In this document: in pieces, positions 19,450 through 62,535 of the stretch | How the letters are laid out: every line of letters begins with the position of its first letter | How positions within the stretch are numbered: the first letter of the stretch is position 1 | Assembly (NCBI GenBank): GCA_027483535.1 | Contig: JAIXUN010000003.1 | Coordinates: forward strand, 62,001-126,000 | Direction of reading: 5' to 3' | From: a bacterium | GTDB taxonomy: Bacteria > Armatimonadota > Fimbriimonadia > Fimbriimonadales > Fimbriimonadaceae | Length of the DNA stretch: 64,000 bases | Made by a program: the position numbers and the translations under genes | The notes under the pieces: model-generated | Told to the model about the DNA's origin: nothing | The model's database searches: none | The model's input: only the letters and a program-made list of their open reading frames with translations

Positions 19450-19856
19450 TCGTTGGGTCGGCTTGGAAAGAATCGCTCGAACCAAGGCGGTTCTCGGACC
19501 CCTCACCCGGCCTTCGGCCACCCTCTCCCCCGGAGGGGCGAGGGTCCGCCATTGGATGTTTCAACCCGTTTTTAACAAGGTCCGGAGGACCGTCCAGATT
19601 GTTAGCCCAGACCGTCAGGTCTGGGTAGGAACCCCATAAGATTCAAAGGTCCGGAGGACCGGCCAGATACTCCAAAGGTTTCCCGATGTTCCGCGGACTC
19701 TATTGCCACGGCTCCGCCGTTCGGGAATTTAGAAATCGACCCACATTCCCAGGGTTGAAACCCTGGGCTGCGATGATTGCCGGGGCTCCGCCCCTTTTGG
19801 TCCGGATGGACGACCCATAAATTCCCCTCGCAAGAGAACGGCAGCCCCCCTGCGGA

Positions 19857-20633: not shown

Positions 20634-20696
20634 CGCCCCAGCCCCAAGAATCCGTAACTTCCAGAACCTACATACTCAGCGCGGGGGCGAAAGGGT

Positions 20697-45500: not shown

Positions 45501-46387
45501 CCCATCCCAAATCAATCGGGGCAGGCTTTCGGAAAGGTGATCCGGAGAATCAGGGCGTCAATCGGAATGGCTTGTAGTCACGGTCCGGCTTCATTCCCCT
45601 CCCCGATAAATCGGGGCAGGCACTGGAGGGGTGGCGCGGAGTGACGGGGTGGTCTCCGGATTACCGTCTCGTTCTTGCGACCCATTGCCCGTTGAAGCCT
45701 GACTCGCGCGAAAGCCAGGGATTGGAGGGTGTTCGGTCCTGCCGACCACCCCGGCCTTTCAGGCCACCCCTCCCAGGAGGGGAATATGGTGCCCTTCACT
45801 TCCGAGAAGGTCCGGAGGACCGTCCAGACTGTTAGCCCCGACCGATAGGTCTGGGTGGGTAGTCGGTAGAAAGCAAAGGTCCGGCAGGACCGACCAGAAT
45901 CTCCGGAGCGATAAACATCGCGGCCTACCGTTTCAACTTGCGAACCTTGGCGGCTATATCCCTCGCCCCTCTGGGGGAGAGGGTGGCGCGAAGCGACGGG
46001 TGAGGGGTCTGGGAAGCTTTGTCGCGCGTTGGGGAAAAGGGGGGCAGGCTCCCTATCTCCGCTTGCCAGGGCTCCGCCCTTCTGGCTTTTAAGGAGAACC
46101 CCGAACCCAGGGTTAAAGCCCTGGGCTGCGATGCTGGTCGCGGCTCCGCCGCTTTTGGAAAGAAGGTCCGAGCCAAATTCCCCTCCCGGGAGGGGTGCCC
46201 CGACGGGGCGGGGTGGTCTCCGGGAATGTTTTCGAAATAGATTTGGCGTCCACATTCCCATCGGAAAAAGAGCGGTGTTTGAACTTGCCGACCACCCCCT
46301 TCCCGATTCTCGGGACCGACCAGATACTCCCACCGCAAAATGATCTTTCACGGACCCCTCACCCGGTCCTTCGGCCACCCTCTCAGC
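45501..46387. repeat. Cluster of GC-rich palindromic repeats, block 7
   Basis: Contains an inverted family B pair (45593-45785), family C (45806-45905), family A forward (45960-46015), family D (46060-46150) and a chimeric family B unit at 46176-46320. A truncated reversed family A unit at 46353-46387 overlaps the stop codon of the last gene of the minus-strand operon. No independent gene seen. Confidence 0.87.
45593..45785. repeat. Inverted-pair composite repeat, family B, with nested palindrome
   Basis: Starts ATTCCCCTCC, ends GAGGGGAAT. The left arm is interrupted by CCCCGATAAATCGGGG plus CAGGCACT, the same insert type as in the right arm at 31190-31397 but on the other side. Confidence 0.7.
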
Positions 46388-46976
46388 CGAGCTGAACCTT
46401 AGTCGGCGCAACCGCAAGAAACAACCCCTCCGCCGACCTGCCCGTCAATCGCTCGATCTCCCGCTTAAACTCCCCAACCCCAACCAGCCGGATTCCATGC
46501 CGCTGAAGCGCGGACAACAGCTGCAAATCCTTCACCGGGTCGATTTTCCGGACGAAATACACCTTCAGGAAATCTTTACCGCCCGGCGGAATCACCCCCA
46601 GGGTGATCTCGATTCGACTCTTAACCCTTGCAACGGCAATCTCGCACTCGGTCACGCCCTCAAGCGGAATGGTGGTTTTCCCCAGCCGAGTTGAAACTTC
46701 GAGAGCATTGCCTTCAAAAACCACCTTGGTGACGGACGTCAACCATTCCTTCGAATATAAGATGCCGCCATATATGGGTGCAAGGAATAAGACCCATGTA
46801 ACGAACAGGGATTTTTGATCAGAGATCGGAGTTAGGTATTTGTGGAGGAGAGCGGCCAAGTTGCTCAAGATCATTAGAACGAACCAGGGACTCAATACCA
46901 CCAGGAACCAGGTTCGATGAAGCCCGTCGGCTCGCAGCCGAACCGGTGACGATGCCGAAACGTCGACCTCTCTCAC
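46383..46976 (-). CDS. Nuclease-operon membrane protein 9 (half-length paralog)
   Basis: Last gene of the eleven-gene operon: 197 residues, one module only. Two membrane helices lie at about 24-48 ('TWFLVVLSPWFVLMILSNLAAL') and 60-77. A soluble PH-like region of strands follows ('ALEVSTRLGKTTIPLEGVTECEIAVARVKSRIEITLGV'), then 'KIDPVKDLQLLSALQRHGIRLVGVGEFKREIERLTGRS'. The end is close to that of the next protein, so the two are recent duplicates. The ATG overlaps the upstream stop by 4 bases. Its stop lies inside a palindromic repeat. Function unknown. Confidence 0.75.
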   Translation of the reverse strand: MREVDVSASSPVRLRADGLHRTWFLVVLSPWFVLMILSNLAALLHKYLTPISDQKSLFVTWVLFLAPIYGGILYSKEWLTSVTKVVFEGNALEVSTRLGKTTIPLEGVTECEIAVARVKSRIEITLGVIPPGGKDFLKVYFVRKIDPVKDLQLLSALQRHGIRLVGVGEFKREIERLTGRSAEGLFLAVAPTKVQLG

Positions 46977-47572
46977 GCCGACCCTCCCGCTTTAAGCGAC
47001 CCGGACTCGTCAAACAGCCCCACCGTGGACTTACCCGTCAACCGCTCGATATCCCGCTTAAACTCTTCGACCCCGATCATCTCCACCCCTCGCCGCTGAA
47101 GGGCAGGGAGCAACTGCAGGTCCTTGAGCGGATCGAACTTGCTACGGTACAAGAACACCTCCACGCGCTCGGTTTCGCCCTCACCCTTGAGCAAAAAGAA
47201 AACCTTGACCCGGGTGAACGATCGGTTGATGAAGAGTTCGCAACTGCGGAGATCGCTCACCGCCAAAACGGTTTGTTTTGCCCGAGTGGAAACGGTGAGA
47301 GACTCCTCCGAAAGCGAAACATCGATCACGGAGTCCCGCCACCACCCCCAAAAACAAAAGAAGTTGAACATACCGGCAACGACCAGAATGCACGTCCTCA
47401 CGATTCGCCGTTCTTCGGCAGGCCAAGTCCACTGGTCAACGACGATCCCGTGAACGAGAAGACCGAAGGAAAAAATCATAAGCACGAACAGGATCGGCAT
47501 CCAAACGGTGGGCCAATCGCCCACCCCCTTCAGGCGAACCGATGAGGACTCCGAAACGTCGACCTCACTCAC
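46973..47572 (-). CDS. Nuclease-operon membrane protein 8 (half-length paralog)
   Basis: 199 residues, one module: two membrane helices at about 18-40 ('VWMPILFVLMIFSFGLLVHGI') and 54-72 ('CILVVAGMFNFFCFWGWW'). The PH-like soluble part follows ('SLTVSTRAKQTVLAVSDLRSCELFI'), then 'KFDPLKDLQLLPALQRRGVEMIGVEEFKRDIERLTGKS'. Closest relative is protein 9. Both start with the same 'EVDVS-SS-VRL' leader. Overlaps both neighbours by ATGA-type junctions. Confidence 0.75.
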   Translation of the reverse strand: MSEVDVSESSSVRLKGVGDWPTVWMPILFVLMIFSFGLLVHGIVVDQWTWPAEERRIVRTCILVVAGMFNFFCFWGWWRDSVIDVSLSEESLTVSTRAKQTVLAVSDLRSCELFINRSFTRVKVFFLLKGEGETERVEVFLYRSKFDPLKDLQLLPALQRRGVEMIGVEEFKRDIERLTGKSTVGLFDESGSLKAGGSA

Positions 47573-48567
47573 GCCGACCCCCTCGGAGCCCTGCTGTTCC
47601 CTTCTGCCGCCAGCGCGATCCGCCGTTTGACCTCTTCCAAGACCGCTACATCCGAAGCATCCTTGAACTGGATCCGACGTTCGGAACCGCGCCCGACTCT
47701 TGGCTTGATCTCAACCCAATACTCGTTCGAATCGGGAGTGTTCATTCGCCGCACAGCGCGAATGCTTTCCAGATCCCCGTAGGTGTAAGCGTTGATGTAC
47801 TTCTCACCAACGGTAATCCCTATACCTTCCGAGCCAAACACCATGGCGAGGGGTTGAAACTTGGGCATGCTTAGCAAGAATCCCAATGCTGCCAGAGCCG
47901 CACCAATGAGAACGCCAATTGGATGAACCATGACGACTGGGACGGACTGTAATACCAAAGTGCCACCGGCGAAGACTAGCCATTGATGAAGAGGTGTAGC
48001 CGTGAAGGTGAAAGATTCGAAAAAGCGCTGTCGCACTTCAACGGCGAGTTCTACGTCTCCAACCCGCTTTTTGAAGTCTTCTTGAAAGAGTTCGACTCTT
48101 TTATCGAAACGTTGCGCAAGGCGGCGGACGTAAGATTCTAGATTAAGCCTACTTCCTAACAACTCTCGGAGGCGCAGCAGAAATATGGATGAGTCATCCC
48201 GATCTAGGGCTTTACGGTTGTGAAGGCTTAGATATTTCGCGCCCTCAGTTGTTTCAAAGGTTAAGGTTGAGAAACTTGTATCACACGACAATACAGTGTC
48301 TAAAGCAATTGTCATCTTTTTCTTTTGAAACACGGATGAAATTTCAGTATTCGTGAGGGTTATACGATATCGATCGAGTTGCTGAACCGCAAAGAAAATA
48401 AGAATAAATACCAATAGCTTAAAAAGCACAAACGCAACGAACACTTTGGGCATTCTGTTGTTTTCGACGACTAAAAATTGGAAACCCACGATGAGCGCAA
48501 ACCATGTCCATTGATTGGTTCCGTCGATGGTGATCGGCCTTTCTGGATCGTTGTTCGGAACTTTCAT
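47569..48567 (-). CDS. Nuclease-operon membrane protein 7 (double-length paralog)
   Basis: 332 residues and two modules. N-terminal helices at about 18-62, soluble part with 'TEISSVFQKKKMTIALDTVLSCDTSFSTL', second helix pair near 198-235 ('WLVFAGGTLVLQSVPVVMVHP', 'IGVLIGAALAALGFLLSMP'). The second module is 'MVFGSEGIGITVGEKYINAYTYGDLESIRAV'. The Gly-hP-pattern 'G.EGIG' is shared by proteins 1-3 and 5-7 as a family marker. The first half of the gene (about 48200-48500) is visibly richer in A/T than its neighbours. Overlaps both neighbours by 4 bases. Confidence 0.75.
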   Translation of the reverse strand: MKVPNNDPERPITIDGTNQWTWFALIVGFQFLVVENNRMPKVFVAFVLFKLLVFILIFFAVQQLDRYRITLTNTEISSVFQKKKMTIALDTVLSCDTSFSTLTFETTEGAKYLSLHNRKALDRDDSSIFLLRLRELLGSRLNLESYVRRLAQRFDKRVELFQEDFKKRVGDVELAVEVRQRFFESFTFTATPLHQWLVFAGGTLVLQSVPVVMVHPIGVLIGAALAALGFLLSMPKFQPLAMVFGSEGIGITVGEKYINAYTYGDLESIRAVRRMNTPDSNEYWVEIKPRVGRGSERRIQFKDASDVAVLEEVKRRIALAAEGNSRAPRGSA

Positions 48568-49673
48568 TTCAGCACTCCCGCATAAGTTGCTTCACCTATC
48601 TGCAACGCCTTCACCTTCTCCGATGCCTTCTTCAGCACCTCTCGATCAACCTCGACCGTTGGAAAAAGCTCGATGGTGATCTCTTCGTCGGTTTGCAATT
48701 TCATTTGAACAAGGACCGTGGGAGATGTGCCGTACCGAGGCAGGACGAACTGAAGCGACTTGAGGTCGGCAAGCGCGTAGGCCTCCATCAACACCCCGTC
48801 TCTAAAGAAACCGACACCGTTCTCGCCGACCACAAACTCAAAAGTTGGTCTCGGCGGCCGCTTCCAGTTGAACAGGTAGCTTGCGATAAAGCCCGCCGCC
48901 GTGCAAAATGCCGATGTACGGGGCGACCAGTTGAACTGGTTCAGCCCAAGGTAGGCCGCTACGAGGAAAGCGAACGGCACCGCATCAAACCAACGAACCT
49001 TGATCTGACCGAGCTTCTCGAAGAAGCTCAGCTCGTACGGGCATCGGTAGAGCTCGGCGCCGAGCGCATCGTGGAATCGCTGATCCCACTCCGGCACTGA
49101 CCCCCACTTGTTCGCTATCATCGCCTTGCGAAACTTGACCAGGTTCTCCAGCCGCAACCCACGCGACTCCAGTTCCAGAAGAAACGCAATGACCTTCTGT
49201 CGGTCCTTGGCTCGCCATATTGGGAGCGGACCGGTGAGGCGCGCGCCGCTCTTTGAGAGCAGAACCAGAGTCCACTCCCCCCGATTGTTTGACGTCGCAA
49301 GAATGCAGCGATCGATCTCGGCGAGCGGGATTTCGGTGGTGCGGAACAGCTTGTATTGGCGAATGAATTGCGGGGTGAGCTCGAGAAAGCGAACGTAGCT
49401 TGCGGTCACCAGCCCAAGGGTAACCATCGCGATTACTGTCTGGACCGCAAACAGCCAGCCTCGGATGATCTGTACATCGTTCGGGGCCGGCTTCATCTGC
49501 GGGAGCGTGCGGATGTAAAGGACGAGCAAGCTTAGGATGAATGCCACCATTAAGCCGAGGGCAAAAAGAGTGAGCAGGTCTTTACGGAACAGCCCCGGCC
49601 CAAGCCGGAAGACTGATTCCCTCGCTTGATCCTCCGACCGAAGGTCGACTGTGTCGGGTGAAGGCTCGCTCAC
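48564..49673 (-). CDS. Nuclease-operon membrane protein 6 (double-length paralog)
   Basis: 369 residues. Helices at about 35-60 and 75-100, a PH-like part with 'TEIPLAEIDRCILATSNNRGEWTLVLLSKSG', then 'FLLELESRGLRLENLVKFRK', second helix pair near 235-275 and second module 'FVVGENGVGFFRDGVLMEAYALADLKSLQF'. Very similar to protein 5; at DNA level a stretch around 49151-49190 is almost the same as 50311-50345. They arose by a recent tandem duplication. Four-base overlaps on both sides. Confidence 0.78.
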   Translation of the reverse strand: MSEPSPDTVDLRSEDQARESVFRLGPGLFRKDLLTLFALGLMVAFILSLLVLYIRTLPQMKPAPNDVQIIRGWLFAVQTVIAMVTLGLVTASYVRFLELTPQFIRQYKLFRTTEIPLAEIDRCILATSNNRGEWTLVLLSKSGARLTGPLPIWRAKDRQKVIAFLLELESRGLRLENLVKFRKAMIANKWGSVPEWDQRFHDALGAELYRCPYELSFFEKLGQIKVRWFDAVPFAFLVAAYLGLNQFNWSPRTSAFCTAAGFIASYLFNWKRPPRPTFEFVVGENGVGFFRDGVLMEAYALADLKSLQFVLPRYGTSPTVLVQMKLQTDEEITIELFPTVEVDREVLKKASEKVKALQIGEATYAGVLK

Positions 49674-50830
49674 CGGTGACTCTCCCCGCTACTGACCTCG
49701 CCCGAATCGACCTTTGCGGGCGCATCTGCCTGCGAAAGGTGCTGCGGCGATGCGGAATTCATCGCCTTCACCCTCTCCGATGCCTCTTTCAGCACCTCTC
49801 GATCACCCTCACCGCCGGTCTCCAGATCGAACTCCATCACCTCTCCGCTGAGAAACTTAATCTGCAGACTGCAATGGGGCGAACCGCTGTATCGCACAAA
49901 CCCAAACTTCAGCGACTTCAGATCGGCGTACGGGTAAGCCTCTATCAAGGTATTGCCTTTCATGAAGCCGATGCCGTTCTCACCCAACACGAACTCCGAC
50001 GAGGGCGTTGCTTTACGATTCCGATTCAAGAGAATGATCAAGATCAGACATGCGGCACAGCTCACCGAAATGGCACCTCGATGCCAATCTAGAAACTTCA
50101 TCCCGAGGTAGCCAACCGGCAGAGGAACCAAAGGCAAAAGGTCGACCCAGCGGAGATCGATCTCTTTGAACTTCTCCAAGTAGCCCGCCTCGTAAGGACA
50201 TCGGTAAATCTCGGTACCGAGCGCGGCTATGATCCTTTGATTCCACTCCGGCACGGGTTGCCAATTCCTCTCAAGGATGGACTTGTGGAACTTGACCAGG
50301 TTTTCCAGCCGCAACCCGCGCGACTCCAGTTCCAGAAGAAAAGAGATCACCTTTGCGCGAGCCTTCGCTCCCTCCATCTGAATAGGAACCCTGATCGACG
50401 CACCCCCCTTAGACTCGACAACCAGCGTCCATTCCCGCCGATTGTTATTCGGAACAAGAATGCATCGATCAACCACTGAGAACGCAATCTCCTTCGTGCG
50501 GAAGAACCCAACTCGGCGAATCGATCCCAGAGTTAGCTCGACTCGCTTCACGTATTGGGACATGAGAACAAGAAAGGTGCCCAAAAACCCAAGGCTCTGA
50601 GTGCGCCAAAGCGTTAGCGCGATAGCCTCTCCCGGATCGACAGGCACAGCGCGCCCGATAACGATTTGCCGGTATTGAAGATGTGCGAGTAAGAAAAAGA
50701 TGGTGACAAGCCCGAAACCCAGAATGTAGACAAGGTTTTGCCGAAGCAGTCTCGGTCCCAGAACACTGACGGAACCGGTCCCCCGAATGTAGGGAGAAGT
50801 CGGCAAGAGATCGGGCGAAAGGTCGCTCAT
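49670..50830 (-). CDS. Nuclease-operon membrane protein 5 (double-length paralog)
   Basis: 386 residues, the longest of the series. Helices at about 33-55 and 75-95; soluble part with 'KEIAFSVVDRCILVPNNNRREWTLVVESKGG' and 'FLLELESRGLRLENLVKFHK'; second helix pair near 232-270; second module 'FVLGENGIGFMKGNTLIEAYPYADLKSLKF' ending 'VLKEASERVKAMNSAS'. The extra C-terminal 20 residues are Ala/Asp/Ser-rich. 'RCI(L)' followed by an Asn-Arg-rich turn is shared with protein 6 and may be a surface site. Confidence 0.78.
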   Translation of the reverse strand: MSDLSPDLLPTSPYIRGTGSVSVLGPRLLRQNLVYILGFGLVTIFFLLAHLQYRQIVIGRAVPVDPGEAIALTLWRTQSLGFLGTFLVLMSQYVKRVELTLGSIRRVGFFRTKEIAFSVVDRCILVPNNNRREWTLVVESKGGASIRVPIQMEGAKARAKVISFLLELESRGLRLENLVKFHKSILERNWQPVPEWNQRIIAALGTEIYRCPYEAGYLEKFKEIDLRWVDLLPLVPLPVGYLGMKFLDWHRGAISVSCAACLILIILLNRNRKATPSSEFVLGENGIGFMKGNTLIEAYPYADLKSLKFGFVRYSGSPHCSLQIKFLSGEVMEFDLETGGEGDREVLKEASERVKAMNSASPQHLSQADAPAKVDSGEVSSGESHR

Positions 50831-51918
50831 TTGATATCCCCCTGGATTCCGGTGCCTTCCTTCGCCCCCGCCTCCGATTTCGGCTCGTCGCGTTCGGGAT
50901 TGTCCCGCTCCGGATTGTCCCGTTCCGGATTGTCCTTTTGCGGCGAGTCTTCTGGGGAAGGGTCCGCATCTCGGGTGTTCATCGCCTTCACCGCTGCGCT
51001 CGCCTCCAGCAGCAAGCTCTTCCCGACCTCATCGGCGATCTCCACCTCTTCTGACCATCCGGCTTTGTTTGGAAGCACAACGGTGAGCTTTGCCAACGAG
51101 AGCTGCTTTCGCTGCACAAACTCCACCTCCAGCGACGAAACCTCCGAGTACGGGTACGCCACCAACACTCCTCGATCGCAAACCACGCCTAGCTCTTTGC
51201 TCCCCACCACAAACCGCATGGAATCATCCTTTACGGTTATCTTTCCTAATCGCTTGAAACGGTGCCTCTCTTCCCCAAGGGCATTCAACAACCGTTGCTG
51301 CCATTCCGGCACAACGGTGTTGAATCGAGTGACGAATTCAAAGTTGAGACCCGCAAAGAACTCCAGCTTCACCCCGCGAGATTGGAGCGTGTTAACGAGT
51401 TGCACAATCAATCCACGATCGGCCGGAGTGTCACACCTTAAGTTGGCCACGAAGCCTAACTGTCTCCCCTTTTTGTCTGCTTTAAGCGTCGCCGGGGTCA
51501 GATAAAGGGCCAAGAGCTTGCCGGAAGACAACAAGATGCAGGATCTGACCAGCGACTCAAACTCGATGGTTATCTTCCCGCGAAGTGAGATTAACGAAAT
51601 CGACCGGTCTTCGATACGGATGGTATGCGTGTTCCCAATCCAGCCCTTCACAAAGTTGTACGTGAGATACAAAAGGCTTAACGGTACTAGCAAGCCCACC
51701 AAAGACGGAGTTGAAGGAGGTCGTCCCGTAGAAAGGATATAACTCACCACTGAAAAAGCGATGAACATGGAGATGAACAGCAGCGCAAATGTCAGGAACG
51801 TAGGCGGAGTTCGGCGAGCTTTTATCGTCATATTGGATCGCAGATAAGCCGATTCTTTGGGCTTTTGCGACTCGGAAGGCGTGTCGGCCCCTGGGCTTGA
51901 AAGGTTCTCGCTTGTCAT
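50827..51918 (-). CDS. Nuclease-operon membrane protein 4 (double-length paralog with repeat tail)
   Basis: 363 residues. Helices at about 40-60 and 70-92, soluble part 'DRSISLISLRGKITIEFESLVRSCILLSSGKLLALYL', then 'NTLQSRGVKLEFFAGLNFEFVTRFNTVVPEWQQRLLNALG'. The second module 'FVVGSKELGVVCDRGVLVAYPYSEVSSLEVEF' follows without a strong second helix pair. The tail 'NPERDNPERDNPERDEPK' is a charged tandem repeat. The different spacing suggests loss of the middle membrane pair. Overlaps both neighbours by 4 bases. Confidence 0.75.
   Translation of the reverse strand: MTSENLSSPGADTPSESQKPKESAYLRSNMTIKARRTPPTFLTFALLFISMFIAFSVVSYILSTGRPPSTPSLVGLLVPLSLLYLTYNFVKGWIGNTHTIRIEDRSISLISLRGKITIEFESLVRSCILLSSGKLLALYLTPATLKADKKGRQLGFVANLRCDTPADRGLIVQLVNTLQSRGVKLEFFAGLNFEFVTRFNTVVPEWQQRLLNALGEERHRFKRLGKITVKDDSMRFVVGSKELGVVCDRGVLVAYPYSEVSSLEVEFVQRKQLSLAKLTVVLPNKAGWSEEVEIADEVGKSLLLEASAAVKAMNTRDADPSPEDSPQKDNPERDNPERDNPERDEPKSEAGAKEGTGIQGDIK
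50891..50935 (-). repeat. 15-bp coding tandem repeat in membrane protein 4
   Basis: Three consecutive 15-base units (consensus CGTTCCGGATTGTCC on the plus strand) encode the NPERD repeat. A likely slippage site that would vary tail length in frame. Confidence 0.8.
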
Positions 51919-52985
51919 TGGCGCTTCTCGTTGGCGAGCGGGGTCCCCAACTTGGGCTGGGAATTCTGAATGGCTTGTTCGAGTTGGGCGAGGTGGTCGT
52001 CGGACTCTATAATGACAAAGACCCTAAATATCTCCTCACCCGACCAAGAAGAGATAGTGGCCAGTGTCCTGCCCTTGGACTCCGTCACCGTATAAGTAAG
52101 GTCACCCAAAAGTCGATAGGGAATCGCCCGTCCGATTTGGCCTTTGGAAGTTTGCATACCAACACCTTCTGACCCGATCAAGGCCTGCGACATATCAAAG
52201 TGGTCAATAACTGCCCCAACAATCCCTAACGAAGCTACAGAAACAATGCCCATTAAGCTAACAAGAAACGCCTTCCATACATTCGCGCTGACAACCATCG
52301 CGATAAAGAAGACAAGAAAAGCTCCGAGAAGGGAGAGGCTAAAGATCAATCGAATGTTAAACGGCGGGTTCACCTTCACCCCTTTAAAGACAATCTCGCC
52401 AATCAACTTCCTTGCGAACTCTTCTGCAACCAGCGGTTTGCCACTTGAGGTTGTGGAGTTTAAAAGATGGTACAGGCCGGATGTTAACTCAATATGAGGC
52501 GCAAGAATTAGGAGGAATCTATTCAACTCGGCACGATTGACATCCGAAAGGTCTCCTAACTGGATTCCCTTATAGCCTACTTTTGAAAAAATGGCTGCCG
52601 TGCTGAATTCCTGTAAGTAGAATCCACGACCGGGAGTCCTATACACGGCGAGTTTAGTTTCTGGAGCAAGCTTCAGCTCGAAGGATCCCAAGAGCCCCTT
52701 TTGGACCAATGAGCTACCCGTGTAAACGATTGCATTTCGTCGAGAATAGGCCTTCTGAAACAGGAAGCACCCAACCGGAAGGATCAGTGCGAGCTCGACA
52801 AAAAGCACCCAAAACTCCCATCGCTGAACCAATGGTGCGGCTGTATAAACATGGGTGAACCCCAATAGCGGGAAAAAGCAGACAATTATCTGGGTCAGTA
52901 GAAAAATAGCAATCGGCATGGTCATCAGGCCGCGCCGAAGGCGGAAGACCTGCGGTTCGTTCTCCGGCTGACCGTTAGTCGCCAT
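51915..52985 (-). CDS. Nuclease-operon membrane protein 3 (double-length paralog)
   Basis: 356 residues. Helices at about 20-45 ('LMTMPIAIFLLTQIIVCFFPLLG') and 55-72, soluble part with 'SSLVQKGLLGSFELKLAPETKLAVYRTPGRGFYLQEFS', second helix pair near 208-258 ('LIFSLSLLGAFLVFFIAMVVSAN', 'FLVSLMGIVSVASLGIVGAVI') and second module 'ALIGSEGVGMQTSKGQIGRAIPYRLLGDLTY'. It overlaps protein 2 by 11 bases and protein 4 by 4 bases. Codon use is more A/T-rich than in the flanking housekeeping genes. Confidence 0.76.
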   Translation of the reverse strand: MATNGQPENEPQVFRLRRGLMTMPIAIFLLTQIIVCFFPLLGFTHVYTAAPLVQRWEFWVLFVELALILPVGCFLFQKAYSRRNAIVYTGSSLVQKGLLGSFELKLAPETKLAVYRTPGRGFYLQEFSTAAIFSKVGYKGIQLGDLSDVNRAELNRFLLILAPHIELTSGLYHLLNSTTSSGKPLVAEEFARKLIGEIVFKGVKVNPPFNIRLIFSLSLLGAFLVFFIAMVVSANVWKAFLVSLMGIVSVASLGIVGAVIDHFDMSQALIGSEGVGMQTSKGQIGRAIPYRLLGDLTYTVTESKGRTLATISSWSGEEIFRVFVIIESDDHLAQLEQAIQNSQPKLGTPLANEKRQ

Positions 52986-54024
52986 GTTTCAGCTCCTTGA
53001 ATTCCCGGGCAATTCGCTGAAGGGCGTCTTTGTCCTCTTGTTTCTTAACGATGAGGTTGTAGTTCAGTTCATCGCCGTTCAGGAAGATGAGTGAAGCCTT
53101 TATAAGCCCCCGGTCGGCATCAATTCGAGAGGGTGTAAATCGTAAGGATTGCAGCTGCTGATAGGAGATGACATGGGCGACCTGCTCACTTCTGCCAATT
53201 CCAATTCCGTCATGCCCAAGGATTAAATTAAGAGGCTTCTGCATGAATGGTAAAACAGAATGAAGCGCAGCCATCGGTAGCATGACCACCACTTTGGGAA
53301 TAGTGTTGATAACGTATAGGATAGCAAGACCGCCAAGAACGAGGAGGATTTGAAGTCCCTGTGCTTTTGTGAGGCGTAGTCGAGCCTGATCGAATTCGTA
53401 GTTTCGCTCGATCTTTGCTTCAATCTTTACAAGCCCAATTGATTCCTTCAGAGCGTCCTGAGATAAGGGCCGGGTTTCAGGATAGCGTAGGAAGAGCAGA
53501 GGGTAGAGAAATTCTATTCCCTCTGTAAAGTACGGATCGCCCTTTAGTTTCTCCAGTAGAGAATAAGGGAGACGATCTTCTGCCCGGCGGGTGAGGTGAA
53601 GACGAAACTCGTGGCTTTCTCCAGCCTTAGTTTGCACGCTTATTGCCAAGTCATTTGATTTGTGGAATGAATCTGCATTAAGGATATGAACGTGCTTGAT
53701 ATTGTCGTTCGGGATGACAACGGTTTGCTCTAGAGATGATAGGACGATGCTGTTCTCTTCAAATGCAACCGATCGGAAGACGAACTTTTGCCCGCCGTTT
53801 TTTGTCGACCAGACCCGAAGGAGGATGTAGAGCACTAGAAACAAGCCGCAAGCCACTCCGACAATAGAGGGACCGGTAAGAAGGTTGTGGATCAGACCTG
53901 CAGTAAAAACCGTTCCAACACCCACATCGTATTGTCGAAGGGTCTTCTTGTTCTGCAGGTCATCCTGCTCGTCCCGAAGAACAATCTCCAGCCGATCGTG
54001 CGCCAAAGCCACGTCAGTCGCCAT
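52975..54024 (-). CDS. Nuclease-operon membrane protein 2 (double-length paralog)
   Basis: 349 residues. Leader 'DRLEIVLRDEQDDL' matches that of protein 1 ('DRLEIVLRDPFLNS'), and the C-termini 'REFKELKHGD' and 'QEFKELKHGD' are almost the same. Helix pair about 38-68, soluble part 'NSIVLSSLEQTVVIPNDNIKHVHIL', second helix pair about 222-262, second module 'LILGHDGIGIGRSEQVAHVISYQQLQSLRF'. The 11-base overlap with protein 1 lies inside the shared HGD-encoding end. Confidence 0.77.
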   Translation of the reverse strand: MATDVALAHDRLEIVLRDEQDDLQNKKTLRQYDVGVGTVFTAGLIHNLLTGPSIVGVACGLFLVLYILLRVWSTKNGGQKFVFRSVAFEENSIVLSSLEQTVVIPNDNIKHVHILNADSFHKSNDLAISVQTKAGESHEFRLHLTRRAEDRLPYSLLEKLKGDPYFTEGIEFLYPLLFLRYPETRPLSQDALKESIGLVKIEAKIERNYEFDQARLRLTKAQGLQILLVLGGLAILYVINTIPKVVVMLPMAALHSVLPFMQKPLNLILGHDGIGIGRSEQVAHVISYQQLQSLRFTPSRIDADRGLIKASLIFLNGDELNYNLIVKKQEDKDALQRIAREFKELKHGD

Positions 54025-55075
54025 GCTTCAGCTCCTTAAACTCCTGGGCAATCTGCCTCAGCGTCTCCCGATCCTCCGGTGTACGTGGCTTTAGCTCAAA
54101 GCGAAGTTCTTCACCGTTCAAGAACTGAAAAATCACCTTGGGCCGATTGTCGTCTCGAAGGACCGAAGATTCTTCAAATCGAATGGAACGTAAAGCTTTC
54201 AGCGGCATCCCGTAGGCAAATGTTCCATTGGACCAAACTCCGATTCCATCCCTCCCAACAACGAGCCAGAGGGGTTTCTGGAAGATTTGAAAGAGAATGG
54301 GTAGGGTTATGGCTATTGGAAAAAGCGAGGAACTACCTTTTTGATAAATGAAGACAAGAGCACTGCAGAGGCCAAGAACGGCTACCCAAATCAGAATGTG
54401 GCCACGCGTTAGTATGAAGCGATCTGTGCGTTCGTTTCCTTCGAAAATCTTGATCCTTATTCTTTCATCGCCAAGTTGTTCTTGCAAGTCAAACAGTTCA
54501 AAGTTGTTAGGCAGGTCAAGGCCGATCCGAAGTGCATAGAGTGCCTTCTGTACATCGATCAAGGGTTTTTTGAGTGATCGAAGACCATCTAGGAGGACGG
54601 ACAACTGCCCCGAGGTTATGAGTTCACTGGCAGAAAGGCTAAAGGTTTCACTGTTACCCCGTCCCAGCGTGATACTAACTACAAGTGAAGCTCGCTTTTG
54701 AAACCCGCGAAGCGTTGCTACTGATATTTCAGAAATGTCGTCTGTCCGCAAAGTCTTTGTTTCGCTATGTCTTCTGATCTCAATTGCGGAAGGTGTAATG
54801 ACCAGCCGGTGTACTCGTTTGATCTGAGTCAAGAGGAAAATTAAGAAGCCTAGCGATCCAAGACCAGAAAAGGTAAGTAGAAGAACAAATCCGGAAGAGT
54901 TATAATGTGCTTCATTTAGAGTCCCTTGAATGCTATAGGTCAGGGGTGCCAACCAGAGAAGGGCAACACCAACGAAACCTAATTTGATCTGCCGGGAATT
55001 CAGAAAGGGGTCCCGAAGAACAATCTCCAGCCGGTCATCGACTGGTTCGACATTCTCGACAACCGTGCTGCTCAT
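54014..55075 (-). CDS. Nuclease-operon membrane protein 1 (double-length paralog)
   Basis: 353 residues and first membrane gene after the ATPase gene (27-base gap, with a Shine-Dalgarno-like AGGAGATC before the ATG). Helices at about 30-50 and 62-84, PH-like soluble part 'LVITPSAIEIRRHSETKTLRTDDISEISVATLRG', second helix pair about 226-268 ('HILIWVAVLGLCSALVFIY', 'LFPIAITLPILFQIFQKP'), second module 'LVVGRDGIGVWSNGTFAYGMPLKALRSIRF' and end 'AQEFKELKHGD'. The two-module layout looks like an internal duplication of the 198-residue unit seen in proteins 8 and 9. I suggest a bPH2-like fold from strand pattern only. Confidence 0.77.
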   Translation of the reverse strand: MSSTVVENVEPVDDRLEIVLRDPFLNSRQIKLGFVGVALLWLAPLTYSIQGTLNEAHYNSSGFVLLLTFSGLGSLGFLIFLLTQIKRVHRLVITPSAIEIRRHSETKTLRTDDISEISVATLRGFQKRASLVVSITLGRGNSETFSLSASELITSGQLSVLLDGLRSLKKPLIDVQKALYALRIGLDLPNNFELFDLQEQLGDERIRIKIFEGNERTDRFILTRGHILIWVAVLGLCSALVFIYQKGSSSLFPIAITLPILFQIFQKPLWLVVGRDGIGVWSNGTFAYGMPLKALRSIRFEESSVLRDDNRPKVIFQFLNGEELRFELKPRTPEDRETLRQIAQEFKELKHGD

Positions 55076-55102
55076 GATCTCCTCCGGTAGGTTGCCGACC
55101 CG

Positions 55103-58100
55103 CTAGCTCACACTCTGCCGAAACACTGCCGCAAAGAACTCGACAACAAAGCCAGACCCATCGTCACCGAGAAGCTCGCGAACCCGCGATTTCAGGGATT
55201 CAACCGCAGGTGGATCGGCGAGATAGCCCCCGCTGTTCAGGAATGCATCGACCCTGTCGCGTCGGCCCGCAGGAACCCCATGTTCGGCAAGGCTTGCCAG
55301 AAACGTCCTTGCCGAGCTCCCGCTCGCTTCAAACGCCTTAGCAAGGTTTTCGCGAGTCGCAGGGGTAATCACCCCACCCGCCTCAATCGCTTCCCACGTC
55401 AGTCGAGGGAAGTTGGCAAGAAGCTCCTCTCGCAGCGGCTCAAGCTTCACGAGAATCCTCTCCAGATTCGGTTCCTCGGCCGCAAGCGACCCAAACGCCT
55501 CCGGATCGTGAGCGTCCAGCGGGATAGCCAAATTCATCCGACGCGGACGAGGCAACTCGCCGTACTCGGGAATCATCAGCGATCCTCCCACAGGCTCCGG
55601 AATGGCTTCCACAACCAGCGGCCGCACATTCACCGATGGATCGACGCTTTCAAAAACCGCCACGTCGTCCGGTTGGTTGGTGAACACAATCACCTGCCGC
55701 TCCCGACTGATCTCCCGCAGAGCCTCTGCCACCGCTCGACTGGCTTCCGGATCGGACACCGCCAAAACCTCGTCTGCCACCACCGGAAACTTGCGAGTAC
55801 CGCCGTTGGCGCTCTCTTCCTGCAAGTCGATGAGGCCCAGCCGAATGGCGATCAGGCTGTGCATTTTGGTGCCCGTGCTCAGCTCGTTGAACGCCTGGGT
55901 TCGACCCGTTGTCCGGTCTCGCAATCGCAAGTTGCCAAGCTCGTCTTCTTTCACATCCGGGTTCAAAGAAAGGCGGTACCGATTGTTAGAAAACCGGCCC
56001 AAGTAGTCGTTGGCCCGTTCAATCAGCGGCGGAACCGACTGGGTTTTCAGTTCATCGAGCAAAAACCGGTGGAGCCGGTACTTCACAATCGCCCGGGCCT
56101 GATTCTGGAAAAGTCCCTCCCGCGCGCGCTGATCTTCCGCCAACTCTTCGGCAAGCCGTTGATAGTCCTCGTTCTTCTGTGCCCGAGCGACCTCGTTTTC
56201 AATCTCTCGCACCTTGCCCGCCAAATCGGTGTGCTCGGCGGCAAGCCGCTCTTGCTTAGCTCGAATGCCGTCTAGATCGTCGGCGTTCAGCAGTTCCCAT
56301 TCGCCCGGAACGTCGGAAGTCTTGAGTCGGGCAAGGTTCTGCTCGTTCACAGAGCGCTCTGTTTTCAATTGCGATAACCGCTCGTGCAGTTCGGCGCGAT
56401 GAACCAGGGTCTCTTCTCGATCCTCTTCCAGAACCGACTCGAAGCCGTTGGTTTTCCAGAACGAGTTCAGGCTTTCTTTGGCCGCCTCGAAGTTGCCCGC
56501 CGCCTCGTCCAGCTTTTGAATCAGAGAGAAACGCGCCTTCAGCCCATCGATCTCTCGTTCCACTTCCACCGCTTCTGATCGGTAGCCGTTGGCAGAAAAG
56601 AGGTCTCGCAGTTGTTGCCGCAGATCCGCCAAACGCGCTCGTTTGCGCTCTAGTTCGGCTTCCTCCGTGGCCAGTCGCTTTTGACTTTCTTGATAGGTGT
56701 GCAGGGCATCAGAAGCAGCGCGTAGCGAGATCGTCTCTCCCTGAACCCCCTTCTCTTCGAGCAAGCGTTTGCCAGAAGGAATCGCGGGTTCGGCCACTTG
56801 CAGAGCCTTGATCAGGTCTTCCGCCTTTGCCAGCGCTTCGGTATCGGCAACCTTCTGCATCCAGTTCAAAACCTCTCCGGGGGAGGAGTTCTTGGAAAGA
56901 GGATCGCGCGCCACCCGAGCCCGAGCTTCGGCAAGGGTCTCACCCGCCGAAACGGTCCCTTCGGGCTTTTTGGATTTGCCCGCAAGGTACGCCAGCACCG
57001 CCGAAACGCCGCCTAACCCGATCACCTTGACCATCGCCGGAATGGAATTTGGCAACAGCGCAACAATAATGGTGAGCACCGCAATGGCGGCCACAAACAT
57101 TACGGAAAGGAGCTTGCCCTGTTCCGCCCCGGCTGCCGCAGCGATCCGCGGTTCCACGTTCAGCCAGTCGGTAATGGCCGTCTTAACGGCGTCTGCATTG
57201 GGCAGCGATTTGCCACCGTGGTTCTGAGTCCACCGCTCCAGAACCCGTCGATACGCTTCGGCTTTCAGCGCCTCTCGCTTGTAGTCGTCCTCTTCGGCGG
57301 CAATCTGTCGAAACCGCTCCACGTCCTCGCCCGTGAAAGAAGGCAATCCTTCGGGCTGCCAGCCCGTGAGTTTGGCAAGGTCGTCTCGAGCTTTCGTGCA
57401 CTCCGTGCGAAACTTGGTGACCGACTGCTGGATCACATCCAGAGCGCTCTTCACCTGCCCAATCTCATCCGCAAGCGAGCCAAGTAGAGACGCATCCGAG
57501 GTTCTGAGCACCCTTTCGGACGTGTTGGCATCGATCCCTTCGGCATCCAATCGATCCTGAGCCGCCTGAACTTCTCGAAGGCATCGCTCATAACCCGCTC
57601 GCTCTTTTCTAAGCTGGTCTGCCGCGTTCGGCGAGAGCTTTTCCAGTCCAGGATGCTCTTCCAAAAGGGTGGCAATCTGTTCGTTCAGGTTCTGCAGGGT
57701 CTGTTCCAGTTCCCGCCTTCGAAGCAGCCGATCCACCTGATCGATCACGTTCTGAGCCCGCTCCGCTTGCGCAAGCTGATTCTTCAGGCCAACAAGTCGA
57801 TTCTCATCTTCCAGCACCAAGTTCCGGCTGCGACGAATCTCCCGAATCTTGTCGAGCGGCTCACACTTCTTTCGAGGTTTTGGCTTAACGGGTTCCGGCT
57901 TGCGCAAACCCGATCCGATGAGGCGCGTGATGGCGTTGAGCTCATCCTTGTTCATGCCCTCCAGGAGCCCGGCAATGTCCAGGAGGTACCGACCGCGCTG
58001 CTCCGGAAAACCGTTCCAAGTGGATTGCCTTGCGTTGATGTCCAGGGTCACGGTCGCGCCGCCATCGTTGGCCAAGCCCGTCACTCGTCCGCTCGAACCC

Positions 58101-58288
58101 AGCCCTTTCGGCTGAAACACCAGCGTGATCGCCTTGGCAAGGGTGCTCTTTCCAATCGCGTTCGGACCGTAAATCAGGTTCAAACCGGGCTGCAGACCCT
58201 CTAGCGAGCGCTCACCCATAAACCCGTGAATCCCGATCGGGCGGATCGTTTCAATCCAAACTCGGCTCTCCACGGTTGGCAGGCTCAC
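55103..58288 (-). CDS. YhaN/SbcC-like membrane-spanning ABC-type DNA repair ATPase (COG4717/AAA_27-like)
   Basis: 1061 residues. Walker A is GPNAIGKS (41-48) in an SMC/Rad50-type N-terminal lobe. Coiled-coil arms (about 150-390 and 480-740) flank two membrane helices at about 393-437 ('LLSVMFVAAIAVLTIIVALLP', 'VIGLGGVSAVLAYLAG'). The C-terminal lobe has the signature 'FNELSTGTKMHSLIAIR' (about 800-816) and Walker B 'FPVVADE' (834-840). Residues about 890-1061 are an extra Leu/Glu-rich extension not usual for SbcC. With the nuclease encoded immediately upstream it should form an SbcCD/YhaNO-type complex, here anchored to the membrane. Confidence 0.88.
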   Translation of the reverse strand: MSLPTVESRVWIETIRPIGIHGFMGERSLEGLQPGLNLIYGPNAIGKSTLAKAITLVFQPKGLGSSGRVTGLANDGGATVTLDINARQSTWNGFPEQRGRYLLDIAGLLEGMNKDELNAITRLIGSGLRKPEPVKPKPRKKCEPLDKIREIRRSRNLVLEDENRLVGLKNQLAQAERAQNVIDQVDRLLRRRELEQTLQNLNEQIATLLEEHPGLEKLSPNAADQLRKERAGYERCLREVQAAQDRLDAEGIDANTSERVLRTSDASLLGSLADEIGQVKSALDVIQQSVTKFRTECTKARDDLAKLTGWQPEGLPSFTGEDVERFRQIAAEEDDYKREALKAEAYRRVLERWTQNHGGKSLPNADAVKTAITDWLNVEPRIAAAAGAEQGKLLSVMFVAAIAVLTIIVALLPNSIPAMVKVIGLGGVSAVLAYLAGKSKKPEGTVSAGETLAEARARVARDPLSKNSSPGEVLNWMQKVADTEALAKAEDLIKALQVAEPAIPSGKRLLEEKGVQGETISLRAASDALHTYQESQKRLATEEAELERKRARLADLRQQLRDLFSANGYRSEAVEVEREIDGLKARFSLIQKLDEAAGNFEAAKESLNSFWKTNGFESVLEEDREETLVHRAELHERLSQLKTERSVNEQNLARLKTSDVPGEWELLNADDLDGIRAKQERLAAEHTDLAGKVREIENEVARAQKNEDYQRLAEELAEDQRAREGLFQNQARAIVKYRLHRFLLDELKTQSVPPLIERANDYLGRFSNNRYRLSLNPDVKEDELGNLRLRDRTTGRTQAFNELSTGTKMHSLIAIRLGLIDLQEESANGGTRKFPVVADEVLAVSDPEASRAVAEALREISRERQVIVFTNQPDDVAVFESVDPSVNVRPLVVEAIPEPVGGSLMIPEYGELPRPRRMNLAIPLDAHDPEAFGSLAAEEPNLERILVKLEPLREELLANFPRLTWEAIEAGGVITPATRENLAKAFEASGSSARTFLASLAEHGVPAGRRDRVDAFLNSGGYLADPPAVESLKSRVRELLGDDGSGFVVEFFAAVFRQSVS

Positions 58289-59577
58289 TTCGCCACCTCC
58301 TCGCCCAGAAGGGTCTCAATTTCGGCGATCAAAAGGTCGCGAGCAATCCCGGCGGCCTCCTCTGGGTCCAGCACCGCCGGAGCGCCGTCTTCGGTGTCCA
58401 TCGCCATGCCAACAATGGTCGGGTAGTTGGAAACCAGCTCGGCTCGAACGGATTCCACCAGTTTTCGCGCCGATTCTTGCCATTCCGGCTGAACCTCTCC
58501 CACCTCATCGCCACGAAGGTGTTTGGCGCCTAAAAGCACCTTGGCAAGGTCGGCAACGGTGTCCCCGCTGTGCACCAGCCGGGTGGGGTCCACCTTCCGC
58601 ACTGTCTGAATGGCCAGCAAGTGAAAAGCGTCTCGACCGTCGATCGACTCCTCCACCCGAGACTCCAATTCCTCGCGCTCCTTCCCATCCAAATCAAATC
58701 CATCCGACCTGAGCGAGGCAAAAACCCGCGTTTGAACCGACTGCACCGATTCTTGTTGCGCCTTTATCCCGCGAGCCCAGTTGGTGAGGTCGGCTAGGAG
58801 CAGGTCTCGAATCGGTTGAGGTTGAGAGATGTCTAAGTTGCGGCTGACCAGTTCGTACCGAACCGTCGAGATCGGTTCAAACGCACCAAATCTTGCCCGT
58901 CCAGATTCCACCTCCACCCACCACGCGCCGTGAGCTCCGCGTTCGCCTGGACCGAAGTCCATCGCCTGCGGCGAGCTCATGTAGCGGGCGGTCGGGTGGC
59001 TGTCGGGTAGGTGAACGTGACCCAAAATCCACACGTCGGCTTTACCGTCTAAATCTCGGTCAGAGAACGGGTGATAGTCGCTCAGGGCGGCCCCTCTGTC
59101 GCCGTGGAGAAGCCCGATCACGGGCAGCGATTGGCTGGGTCGAATCGCGTTGAGCACGGCATTACTCTTGAACGTTTCACGTGGAAAAGACCACCCGTAA
59201 ATCACGGTTCCTGCAACCTCCACAGATTGCCACCGACCTTCGAGGCCGATCACCTGAAGGCCGCAATCGGGGAAAGATTTCGCGAAGGCGGACAGGGCAA
59301 TGGCGTCGTGATTTCCCGCCACCGCAATCGCGGCGATGCCTCGTTCTTTGAGCCGCTCGAACTGGGCGGCCACCGCGTTTCGGTGGGAATAAAAGGCGGT
59401 GAGGCCGTCAAAAAGGTCGCCTGCAATCAGCAGTCCGGCGGCTCCTCCTTCAATGGCGGCGTCGACCAGTCGAGTGAGCGCACCCATCGTGGTGAGGTCC
59501 ACATTGGTAGGGGAGTTCAGGCAAGAAGAGACTCGGCCCACGTGAACATCGGCGCAACAAAGAAACCGAATCGGCAT
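58285..59577 (-). CDS. YhaO/SbcD-like calcineurin-type nuclease subunit
   Basis: 430 residues starting at the ATG at 59577 (a TTG one codon earlier is possible); AAGGTG precedes it. Metallophosphoesterase motifs are complete: D10-x-H12 ('CCADVHVG'), 'AGDLFDG' (53-58), 'GNHD' (88-91), 'LLHGDRG' (His158) and 'GHVHLPDSH' (186-194). This is the SbcD/Mre11/YhaO layout, giving a Mn-dependent DNA exo/endonuclease. The C-terminal ~150 residues are acidic and helical, an unusual extension that parallels that of the partner ATPase. Its stop overlaps the ATPase start by 4 bases. First gene of the eleven-gene operon; the promoter must lie at about 59580-59680. Confidence 0.9.
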   Translation of the reverse strand: MPIRFLCCADVHVGRVSSCLNSPTNVDLTTMGALTRLVDAAIEGGAAGLLIAGDLFDGLTAFYSHRNAVAAQFERLKERGIAAIAVAGNHDAIALSAFAKSFPDCGLQVIGLEGRWQSVEVAGTVIYGWSFPRETFKSNAVLNAIRPSQSLPVIGLLHGDRGAALSDYHPFSDRDLDGKADVWILGHVHLPDSHPTARYMSSPQAMDFGPGERGAHGAWWVEVESGRARFGAFEPISTVRYELVSRNLDISQPQPIRDLLLADLTNWARGIKAQQESVQSVQTRVFASLRSDGFDLDGKEREELESRVEESIDGRDAFHLLAIQTVRKVDPTRLVHSGDTVADLAKVLLGAKHLRGDEVGEVQPEWQESARKLVESVRAELVSNYPTIVGMAMDTEDGAPAVLDPEEAAGIARDLLIAEIETLLGEEVAK

Positions 59578-59676
59578 CAAGAAACACCTTACTTGAATCC
59601 CACGTTTTGCGCTTGCAAATAATCGGAAATACCGCAGGTTGTTTGTCGGGGATGGGATGGGATGGGGTGGATGTGG

Positions 59677-59776
59677 GACCCCTCACCCGGTCCTTCGGAC
59701 CACCCTCTCCCCCAGAGGGGCGAGGGTTCCGTTGAGACAGAACTTCCCATCAAAGGTCCAAACCAAATTCCCCTTC
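59677..59776. repeat. Palindromic repeats, block 8 (family A plus degenerate family B)
   Basis: A reversed family A unit (59677-59732, inner hairpin GGTCCTTCGGACC) is followed by a degenerate family B start (AATTCCCCTTCCCC). They lie in the gap of 305 bases between the divergent nuclease operon and the next gene, so any promoter of either must work around them. Confidence 0.85.
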
Positions 59777-60536: not shown

Positions 60537-62423
60537 ATGAATCGCGCCATTGTTGCTACCATCACCGCCGTCTCGATCGCCTCGGTTTCTCTTGGGGGAG
60601 GGCTGACCGACCCGCGATCGGCGGCGGGCAAAGGAGTGTTTGGGGACTTGCCCTACGCAGGTCTCAAAGCGGTTCTGATCGCCGGGGCGGACAAGGGAGG
60701 TCCGTTCCCGCACGATCTGCCGGAGATTCATGCGATGGCGGAATCTTTGCGCAAGCGGGGTTTTGAAGTGAGGGAGCTTCAAGCCCCGCTCAAGTGGGCA
60801 ACGGTGCGCGATGCAATGCAGGGAGCATCCATCGTGGGCTATTGGGGGCACGGCGTCATTCGGGGGCACAACGGCAACGAACTAGAGAGCTACAACGTCG
60901 GCGGATTCCATGTTGGGGAAGGTGGCAGTCCAGACGAGATCGCTCGCGAAGTTCGGTTGGCCCCCGGGGCGGCGGTGATGCTGTTCCACGCGTGCTTTAC
61001 TGCCGGAAACTCGGGGGGCGATTACGGAAAGGTTCGGCCCGAGATTGCTCGGATGCGCGTTTCCACCTACTCGGAAGCGTTCTTTAAAGCCGGAGCGGCA
61101 GTCTACTTTGCGGGTCACGGAGACAGATTTTTGAACGGCTGGCTGGACGGCAAGCCCGCCTCGGAAGCGTTTATCGGGCACTCCAACGGAGCCACGGGCA
61201 TCCTCACCTGGGATCACGCCTTTCGACAGATTCCCATTCGAGTTGGGCACCACCAGGCAGATGGCGAGTTTCCGCGGTTTGGTCCGGCGGTGGCGGGAAA
61301 GATCGACAACGACGCTTTGGATCTGCGTGAACTGGCGGTGAGAAAGCGATCGACCCCGGTGCGCTGGGGCGCGGAAGTTCGATGGTCGCCGGGCGAGTGG
61401 TCGGAGGGAGTTCGCGAGAAGGTTCGAGGATCGCTCGCGGCTCTGCCCGCCCAGGTCGCCGAGCAAACGGGTGGCAAGTGTGCCATCGACTACAACAATA
61501 TGAATCGGGACCTGGTTGTGGAGGTGCATCGTGGGGAGGAGCCCTCCACCCAGGTGACGGTGGGAACCGAGTACGAACCAGTCAAACTTTCGGTCACCTT
61601 AACCGAGAGTCAGGCTGAGCAGTTGCTCACCGGGAGCTCGAAGACCCCGATGGCGGCGGCTTGGTCGCGAGTGGTGGGGGCCTATCTGGAGAAGATCGGC
61701 TATCAGAGCAACGCCATCGACTGGTCGGAGCAATGGGCGTACGGGTATCGACCCTCGACGGTTGGCGAGCTGGACAAGGTGGTTCAACCCATCAGCCCGG
61801 CGGCAGGTGCGTTGGTCGGCGGAGCGGTGAAGTTTGCTTGGGCGGGCGATGCTTCGAGCGAGTACGAACTGATGGTGCAATCGGAAGGAAAGGAGAAGCT
61901 CTTCACCGTTTCGGGCTGCGAAACCACCGTTCCGGTGGGGACCCTGACGACGGGCAAGCCCTTCCGGTGGAGCGTGCGGAAGGTGGGCGGCAAGGTCGGC
62001 ATCTTCCGACAAGGAACCTACGTGCGGCTCGATCCGCCCCGATTTGTCTCGATGATGCGAACCGAGGGCGGCATGCAGTTCGGACCTGCGGACACGGCTC
62101 CGGCGGTGGGCGGCAAAGGGGGAGACATCACCCTGCAAACCGTGATCGAAACCTCGGAAGAGGCTCGGCCGATGGCGGAGGTCACCCTGTACGATGGCTC
62201 CTCGTTCAGTGTGGAGATGAAGGAGATCAAGCGGGCGGGGAATCGACGAACGTTCCAGGCTCGCATCAGCTTCGGCGCGAATCGGAAGGGGTTTGCGGTG
62301 AAGCACCGCGTGACGATTTCTTACACTGGGGCGATGGGTCGATTCCAGTCGATGGACCGATTTACGGTGGATCAGGGCGGGGCGACGATGGATCGCCCCC
62401 TGGGTGCTCGGGGACGTTCTTAA
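60537..62423 (+). CDS. Secreted caspase-fold-like protein with C-terminal Ig-like region
   Basis: 628 residues with a signal peptide (about 1-20). Residues 40-200 show a caspase-like alpha/beta order: strand 'LKAVLIAGADKG', helix 'DLPEIHAMAESLRKRGFEVREL', then His105 in 'IVGYWGHG', 'AAVMLFHACFTAG' with Cys153, and 'AVYFAGHG'. His-Gly followed by Cys at a strand end is the C14/C25 peptidase dyad arrangement. The downstream 400 residues are beta-rich ('PAAGALVGGAVKFAWAGDASSEYELMV' is FN3/Ig-like). Proteolytic activity is inferred, and the S1 acidic pocket cannot be judged. Monocistronic. Confidence 0.7.
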   Translation: MNRAIVATITAVSIASVSLGGGLTDPRSAAGKGVFGDLPYAGLKAVLIAGADKGGPFPHDLPEIHAMAESLRKRGFEVRELQAPLKWATVRDAMQGASIVGYWGHGVIRGHNGNELESYNVGGFHVGEGGSPDEIAREVRLAPGAAVMLFHACFTAGNSGGDYGKVRPEIARMRVSTYSEAFFKAGAAVYFAGHGDRFLNGWLDGKPASEAFIGHSNGATGILTWDHAFRQIPIRVGHHQADGEFPRFGPAVAGKIDNDALDLRELAVRKRSTPVRWGAEVRWSPGEWSEGVREKVRGSLAALPAQVAEQTGGKCAIDYNNMNRDLVVEVHRGEEPSTQVTVGTEYEPVKLSVTLTESQAEQLLTGSSKTPMAAAWSRVVGAYLEKIGYQSNAIDWSEQWAYGYRPSTVGELDKVVQPISPAAGALVGGAVKFAWAGDASSEYELMVQSEGKEKLFTVSGCETTVPVGTLTTGKPFRWSVRKVGGKVGIFRQGTYVRLDPPRFVSMMRTEGGMQFGPADTAPAVGGKGGDITLQTVIETSEEARPMAEVTLYDGSSFSVEMKEIKRAGNRRTFQARISFGANRKGFAVKHRVTISYTGAMGRFQSMDRFTVDQGGATMDRPLGARGRS

Positions 62424-62535
62424 CACTTTGTTGTTGCAAATAGCCCCTTTGGATACTCATTTAGCCGTGTTACACTGGTCCTTGAAATCGGGGTGATCCA
62501 CTCGGCTGGATTGTGCTTACCGAGTGGATAGTCGC

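Follow-up and report, generated by a model that had tools for sequence, protein, structure and literature searches.

Introduction

Why would an operon that opens with a nuclease and an ATPase of the Mre11-Rad50 kind continue into nine further genes for membrane proteins that resemble one another? The question is raised by a 64,000-nucleotide stretch of DNA (GenBank assembly GCA_027483535.1, contig JAIXUN010000003.1, positions 62,001 to 126,000 of the forward strand; the whole stretch is here called the window) from a bacterium of the family Fimbriimonadaceae, phylum Armatimonadota. At 46383-59577 of the window, eleven minus-strand genes form an uninterrupted run, with open reading frame (ORF) coordinates rebuilt from the sequence: a nuclease gene, an ATPase gene and an array of nine genes, M1 to M9. 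An initial annotation had taken the run for a YhaO/YhaN-like pair followed by nine paralogous membrane proteins, which were proposed to form a scaffold or channel for a membrane-tethered machine that processes DNA ends. Our models make the two array members examined, M5 and M4, tandem pleckstrin homology (PH) domain proteins whose PH domain is interrupted, between strands b1 and b2, by a membrane hairpin of two helices. The arrangement as a whole is, on present data, that of a single species, and a conserved system is not supported.

Results

By BLASTP the nine array proteins are paralogues, beyond chance, and the view that they share one family is borne out by significant links. The closest pairs are M5/M6 (44% identity, E 3e-94), M8/M9 (38%, E 3e-34) and M1/M2 (29%, E 4e-25), with weaker links for M4/M5 (1e-11), M7/M2 (2e-6) and M3/M7 (3e-3). 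The three best pairs are neighbours, which is the expectation under tandem duplication. Paralogues differ most often at codon position 3 and least often at position 2, and the array genes have therefore been under protein-level selection. No Pfam or NCBIfam family scored above its cut-off for any of the nine. M1 reached 15.1 bits (E 0.015) against bPH_10 (YqeB-like, PF23494), below the curated 27, and bPH_2 (PF03703) matched no array protein at E values up to 1, nor any other protein of the genome. An array profile aligned in register, weakly, with the bPH_2 proteins of relatives (E 2e-5 to 2e-4), and first modules aligned with second modules by hhalign in the same way (E 0.16). The identification of both modules as PH domains rests on structure.

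An AlphaFold2 (AF2) model of M5 (49670..50830, minus strand as for all genes of the run, 386 amino acids), built from the seven double-module paralogues with a mean predicted local distance difference test score (pLDDT) of 72, consists of two repeats, each with a strand, two membrane helices, six strands and a C-terminal helix; the second hairpin is less confident and its helices are broken. Foldseek matched this model to the tandem PH domains of Rtt106, SSRP1/Pob3 and Spt16 (best E 8e-6), and VIA-align gave a Z of 9.6; its alignment of the first PH domain starts at residue 18, pre-helix strand included, and covers 90 residues at 3.2 Å. As the VIA alignment takes in the strand preceding the membrane helices, we read the hairpin as inserted into the b1-b2 loop. 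In M4 (50827..51918, 363 amino acids) the second module agrees with this reading. AF2 predicts its residues 217-316 as an uninterrupted seven-strand barrel and helix (strands at 217, 235, 242, 250, 262, 273 and 287, then the helix; pLDDT mostly 79-91), and hydropathy places no membrane hairpin there, while a charged tail forms the C-terminus of the protein. The M4 model was matched to tandem PH domains of the Rtt106/FACT type by Foldseek at E 6e-6 and by VIA-align at Z up to 9.7, with its second module reaching Z of about 9 to PH domains. By hydropathy the hairpin is present in 15 of the 16 modules of the array, the second module of M4, which has lost it, being the sole exception. A charge test of topology was mildly positive-inside (0.175 against 0.121 lysine plus arginine per residue). 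Membrane-bound PHb families have been described as appearing without strand b1 (Xu et al. 2010, PMC2817789); in contrast, b1 precedes the membrane hairpin in the array models. The initial annotation, which had been read from sequence and had not recognised the PH fold, had named unrelated folds among the nine as grounds for abandoning its reading, a case that did not arise, as the two modelled members have one fold. A histone-like function is not drawn from the FACT/Rtt106 matches.

From sequence, the other seven array proteins probably share this PH fold. M1 (54014..55075, 353 amino acids), M2 (52975..54024, 349), M3 (51915..52985, 356), M6 (48564..49673, 369) and M7 (47569..48567, 332) are, like M5, predicted double PH-hairpin membrane proteins, on paralogy and alignment together with hydropathy or, for M1, the weak bPH_10 match. 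Seven double-module membrane proteins had been described; this stands for M1-M3 and M5-M7 and is to be amended for M4, which combines a hairpin module with a hairpin-free PH module. M8 (46973..47572, 199 amino acids) and M9 (46383..46976, 197), the last gene of the run, are candidate single PH-hairpin modules, identified by their paralogy to each other and by module alignment, with an array profile match for M9 at E 1.6e-6.

The two genes at the head of the operon encode proteins whose motifs are, by sequence, intact. The nuclease ORF (58285..59577, about 430 amino acids) opens with TTG at 59580, directly followed by ATG at 59577, the likely start. Its product, a predicted SbcD/Mre11/YhaO-type metallophosphoesterase, matched PF00149 (Metallophos) at 39.6 bits against a cut-off of 21.5 and sbcd (TIGR00619) at E 9e-9, and has all five metallophosphoesterase motifs (DVHVG-11, GDLFD-54, GNHD-89, LLHGD-157 and GHVH-187). 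The SbcC/Rad50/YhaN-type ATPase (55103..58288, 1061 amino acids) matched SMC_N, AAA_21, AAA_23 and AAA_27, and weakly Rad50 in the PDB; Walker A lies at 41, the signature LSTGT at 803 and the Walker B ADEVL at 838, with a C-terminal extension from about 890. Hydropathy indicates two membrane helices, forming a hairpin, at about residues 393-436, in mid-arm at the site of the Rad50 hook, and a search of the sequence for the CxxC of a zinc hook found none. With no CxxC and with a membrane hairpin at that site, as in several YhaN-type relatives, the ATPase is YhaN-like rather than a classical SbcC. Haloarchaeal homologues align over nearly the full length, hairpin included (24% identity, E 2e-32), and are also without the CxxC hook, and mid-arm membrane helices occur in the ATPases of several pairs of the same phylum. 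The earlier assignment of both proteins, membrane helices included, is thus upheld by models, motifs and hydropathy.

The gene order also holds as first described, with overlaps of 4 or 11 bases and one 27-base gap. The nuclease and ATPase genes overlap by 4 bases, M1/M2 and M2/M3 by 11 bases, and each of the six junctions from M3/M4 through M8/M9 by 4 bases. Most starts in the operon are preceded by a purine-rich Shine-Dalgarno-like sequence.

Searches with the array profile found nothing comparable in the 290 other genomes of the phylum, 19 of the same genus included, so that the array is confined to 1 of 291 phylum genomes searched; the nuclease was matched in 24 of 121 genomes, the source genome counted. 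Neighbourhoods were inspected for about 20 nuclease-ATPase pairs in the phylum and for 11 plasmid loci. The array profile detected no array protein near the roughly 20 pairs elsewhere in the phylum or near ten plasmid pairs of haloarchaea and alphaproteobacteria, and a conserved co-occurrence with COG4717/COG0420 pairs, which the initial annotation had envisaged, is not found at these loci. M1 and M5 had no match on plasmids, and among phages only the ATPase gave matches, all remote. Scans of genome and viral contig collections with the ATPase and M5/M6 returned no relatives; these scans catch close relatives only and so do not prove absence. The surroundings of the tricorn-protease gene that neighbours the operon differ in every relative examined, and insertion or loss therefore cannot be dated by an empty site.

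The nuclease and ATPase trees are congruent. Both place the window proteins with pairs from haloarchaeal plasmids (support 99/97 and 100/99) and not with the pairs of their own genus, family or phylum, and the pair was most likely acquired horizontally, judging from these sequences. The trees sampled this phylum and plasmid records and contain long branches, for which reason the haloarchaeal pairs are described as the closest among those sampled. Some related plasmid pairs have neighbours of a defence type: on the Ochrobactrum plasmid CP061774.1 (L107) a YhaO/YhaN-type pair and a BREX operon are oriented divergently on either side of a WYL-domain gene, and the pair is possibly an unrecognised defence-associated one; a Roseibium plasmid pair adjoins TIR, WYL and Fic genes; and the haloarchaeal pair of Halapricum has genes for a CRISPR-associated ring nuclease and an HNH protein nearby. 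These neighbourhoods point to conflict with foreign DNA, plasmids being a biased sample.

Around the operon, a palindromic repeat of about 50 bases (CCCTCACCCGGTCCTTCGGACCACCCTCTCCCCC...GAGGGGCGAGGG and variants) is dispersed in larger repeat-rich intergenic blocks of the window (for example 4146-4199, 8190-8241, 19491-19544, 45960-46009, 46352-46384 and 59676-59727); copies flank the operon on either side and none was seen within it. Rfam gave no match within 44-64 kb of the window. Divergent from the operon, 60537-62423 (plus strand) encodes a 628-amino-acid protein with a signal-like N-terminus and the stretches YWGHG and HACFTAG, which we take to recall a caspase-like (clan CD) peptidase; neither Pfam nor PADLOC matched it, and no relative turned up in the other 19 genomes of the genus. 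Beyond it, the adjacent overlapping genes 62524-63300 and 63297-63998 (the latter running past the end of the window) encode proteins with membrane helices and similar N-termini (TEFIELVASTRSNRALAERLEELGVN and QEFIDFVTGSPNTLTLAKSFEDLGVN), neither of them matched in Pfam. At 19857-21542 (minus strand) are two neighbouring single-helix membrane proteins with weak DUF3137 matches. From about 15 kb beyond the right end of the window, phage structural and terminase-like genes were recognised by eye (L071, G000:C4:141401-161300, for example L071 15234-16709), which suggests that a prophage lies at a distance of some 20-40 kb from the operon.

Discussion

We tentatively favour, as possible rather than probable, a reading of the operon as an Mre11-Rad50-like machine that is tethered to the membrane on a PH scaffold specific to this lineage, with action against foreign DNA as its likeliest use. 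It is based on the operon of overlapping genes, the intact motifs, the hairpin of the ATPase, the PH fold of the two modelled array members and the restricted distribution, and the use is suggested by the pair's history of horizontal transfer, by the defence-type genes around some related plasmid pairs and by the occurrence of the array in one species. The nuclease and ATPase would form an Mre11-Rad50-like complex, which the arm tips of the ATPase may tether to the cytoplasmic face of the membrane. The PH proteins might surround this complex as a hetero-oligomeric platform or ring held together by pairing of b-sheet edges, and DNA ends or entering DNA could then be held at the membrane while the nuclease processes them. 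Such a hetero-oligomeric scaffold is plausible by analogy, since rings of bacterial PH domains have been described (Xu et al. 2010, PMC2817789). That the operon encodes a new kind of immune or DNA-processing machine, in which a membrane-embedded Mre11-Rad50-like complex has its arm tips in the bilayer inside a hetero-oligomeric PH-hairpin collar of up to nine different proteins and captures and degrades incoming DNA, is a picture that we consider improbable.

Several observations weigh against the reading favoured here. The link between array and pair rests on one operon, as no other genome has both. The 27-base interval between the ATPase gene and M1 is the sole gapped junction of the operon, and M1-M3 differ from the ATPase gene in composition, with G+C of 0.47-0.50 against 0.59 and G+C at third codon positions of 0.48-0.56 against 0.66. 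The genes flanking the operon in the window include no defence genes by Pfam or PADLOC, and the alphaproteobacterial plasmid pairs next to BREX and TIR genes lie on another branch of the trees than the window pair. The source genome also encodes a solitary double PH-hairpin protein (363 amino acids, G000:C1:734591-735679, L054:9589-10680, minus strand) with no nuclease or ATPase beside it; it adjoins an apparent sugar ABC transporter operon, and nothing related to it was found elsewhere in the phylum.

The strongest rival, which we rank as somewhat unlikely, gives pair and array independent functions. On this view the array is a membrane PH-domain system, comparable to YdbS/YdbT or DdE/DdF, that acts in the export of peptides, in resistance to them or in envelope stress, and it grew through tandem duplications behind a nuclease-ATPase pair that is mobile. 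Such a separation would be in keeping with the pairs that occur elsewhere without an array, with the solitary double-PH protein that exists without a pair, with the gapped ATPase/M1 junction, in which M1 has its own strong Shine-Dalgarno-like sequence (GGAGGAG), and with the divergent base composition of M1-M3. There is also a precedent, in that the leaderless bacteriocin EntDD14 is exported only with the help of the bPH2 proteins DdE and DdF (PMC8657885). What speaks for a single unit is that M1 follows on the same strand at only 27 bases, that the gap contains no convincing terminator, that coupled genes continue the run, and that the array was found nowhere except behind the window pair. 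Neither the operon genes nor those immediately next to them include a transporter gene, small peptide genes not having been searched for.

A role of the operon in DNA repair or uptake, as reported for YhaN/SbcE, we regard as unlikely. In favour of such a role, in Bacillus pumilus yhaONM, described as a putative double-strand break repair cluster, is induced with the LexA regulon (PMC3896406), and that study cites Krishnamurthy et al. 2010 on SbcE (YhaN) in repair and competence. The window pair, however, is unlike the usual pair of the phylum in sequence and in tree position, plasmids carry its nearest sampled relatives, and none of the genes beside the operon was recognised as serving competence or repair. 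A Lamassu-type defence system, in which the ATPase would be LmuB, the nuclease a new effector and the array accessory proteins, is very improbable and was rejected as an assignment, because the LmuB match of the window ATPase (E 6e-14, 50 bits) and of a haloarchaeal homologue (E 3e-19) is weakly specific, being common to ordinary YhaN-type ATPases of the phylum (E 2e-9 to 3e-6), and because the PADLOC scan of the nuclease, M1 and M5 gave no match and no recognised LmuA effector.

Among the pairs examined, this is the sole case in which a nuclease-ATPase pair stands in one operon with expanded membrane PH proteins. The array bears on a structural point, that of strand b1 in membrane PHb families, and M4 offers a natural control, since its second module has a continuous PH barrel and no hairpin. 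If the coupling of array and pair is real, the operon would be a concrete case in which to ask why YhaN-type ATPases place their arm tips in the membrane.

Comparison with known systems

With Lamassu the operon has in common that LmuB is the best PADLOC match of its ATPase; it differs in having no recognised Lamassu effector among the proteins scanned. YqeB-like bPH_10 is the only bacterial-PH Pfam model touched by any array member, at a score for M1 below the curated cut-off. The nearest solved folds, those of Rtt106, SSRP1/Pob3 and Spt16, likewise have two PH domains, but belong to soluble eukaryotic histone chaperones with 5-16% identity to the array models. The proteins YdbS/YdbT and DdE/DdF (bPH_2, PF03703) resemble the array in their repeated units of two membrane helices and a PH domain. 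Unlike them, the array proteins have no match to the bPH_2 model, are encoded by nine consecutive genes with tandem double modules and one hairpin-free module, and have a nuclease-ATPase pair as partner rather than an ABC transporter.

The YhaO/YhaN (SbcE; COG0420/COG4717) pair shares with the window pair the overlapping genes in the order nuclease then ATPase, the intact Mre11 and ABC/SMC-type motifs, the membrane hairpin in the ATPase arms and the absence of a zinc hook. The window pair is set apart by its divergence, with the haloarchaeal plasmid pairs as nearest sampled relatives at about 33% identity for the catalytic part of the nuclease and 24% for the ATPase, and by the nine PH-domain membrane proteins behind it, which stand behind no other pair examined. 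The arrangement joins two known kinds of element, a nuclease-ATPase pair and membrane PH proteins, and adds a useful structural detail.

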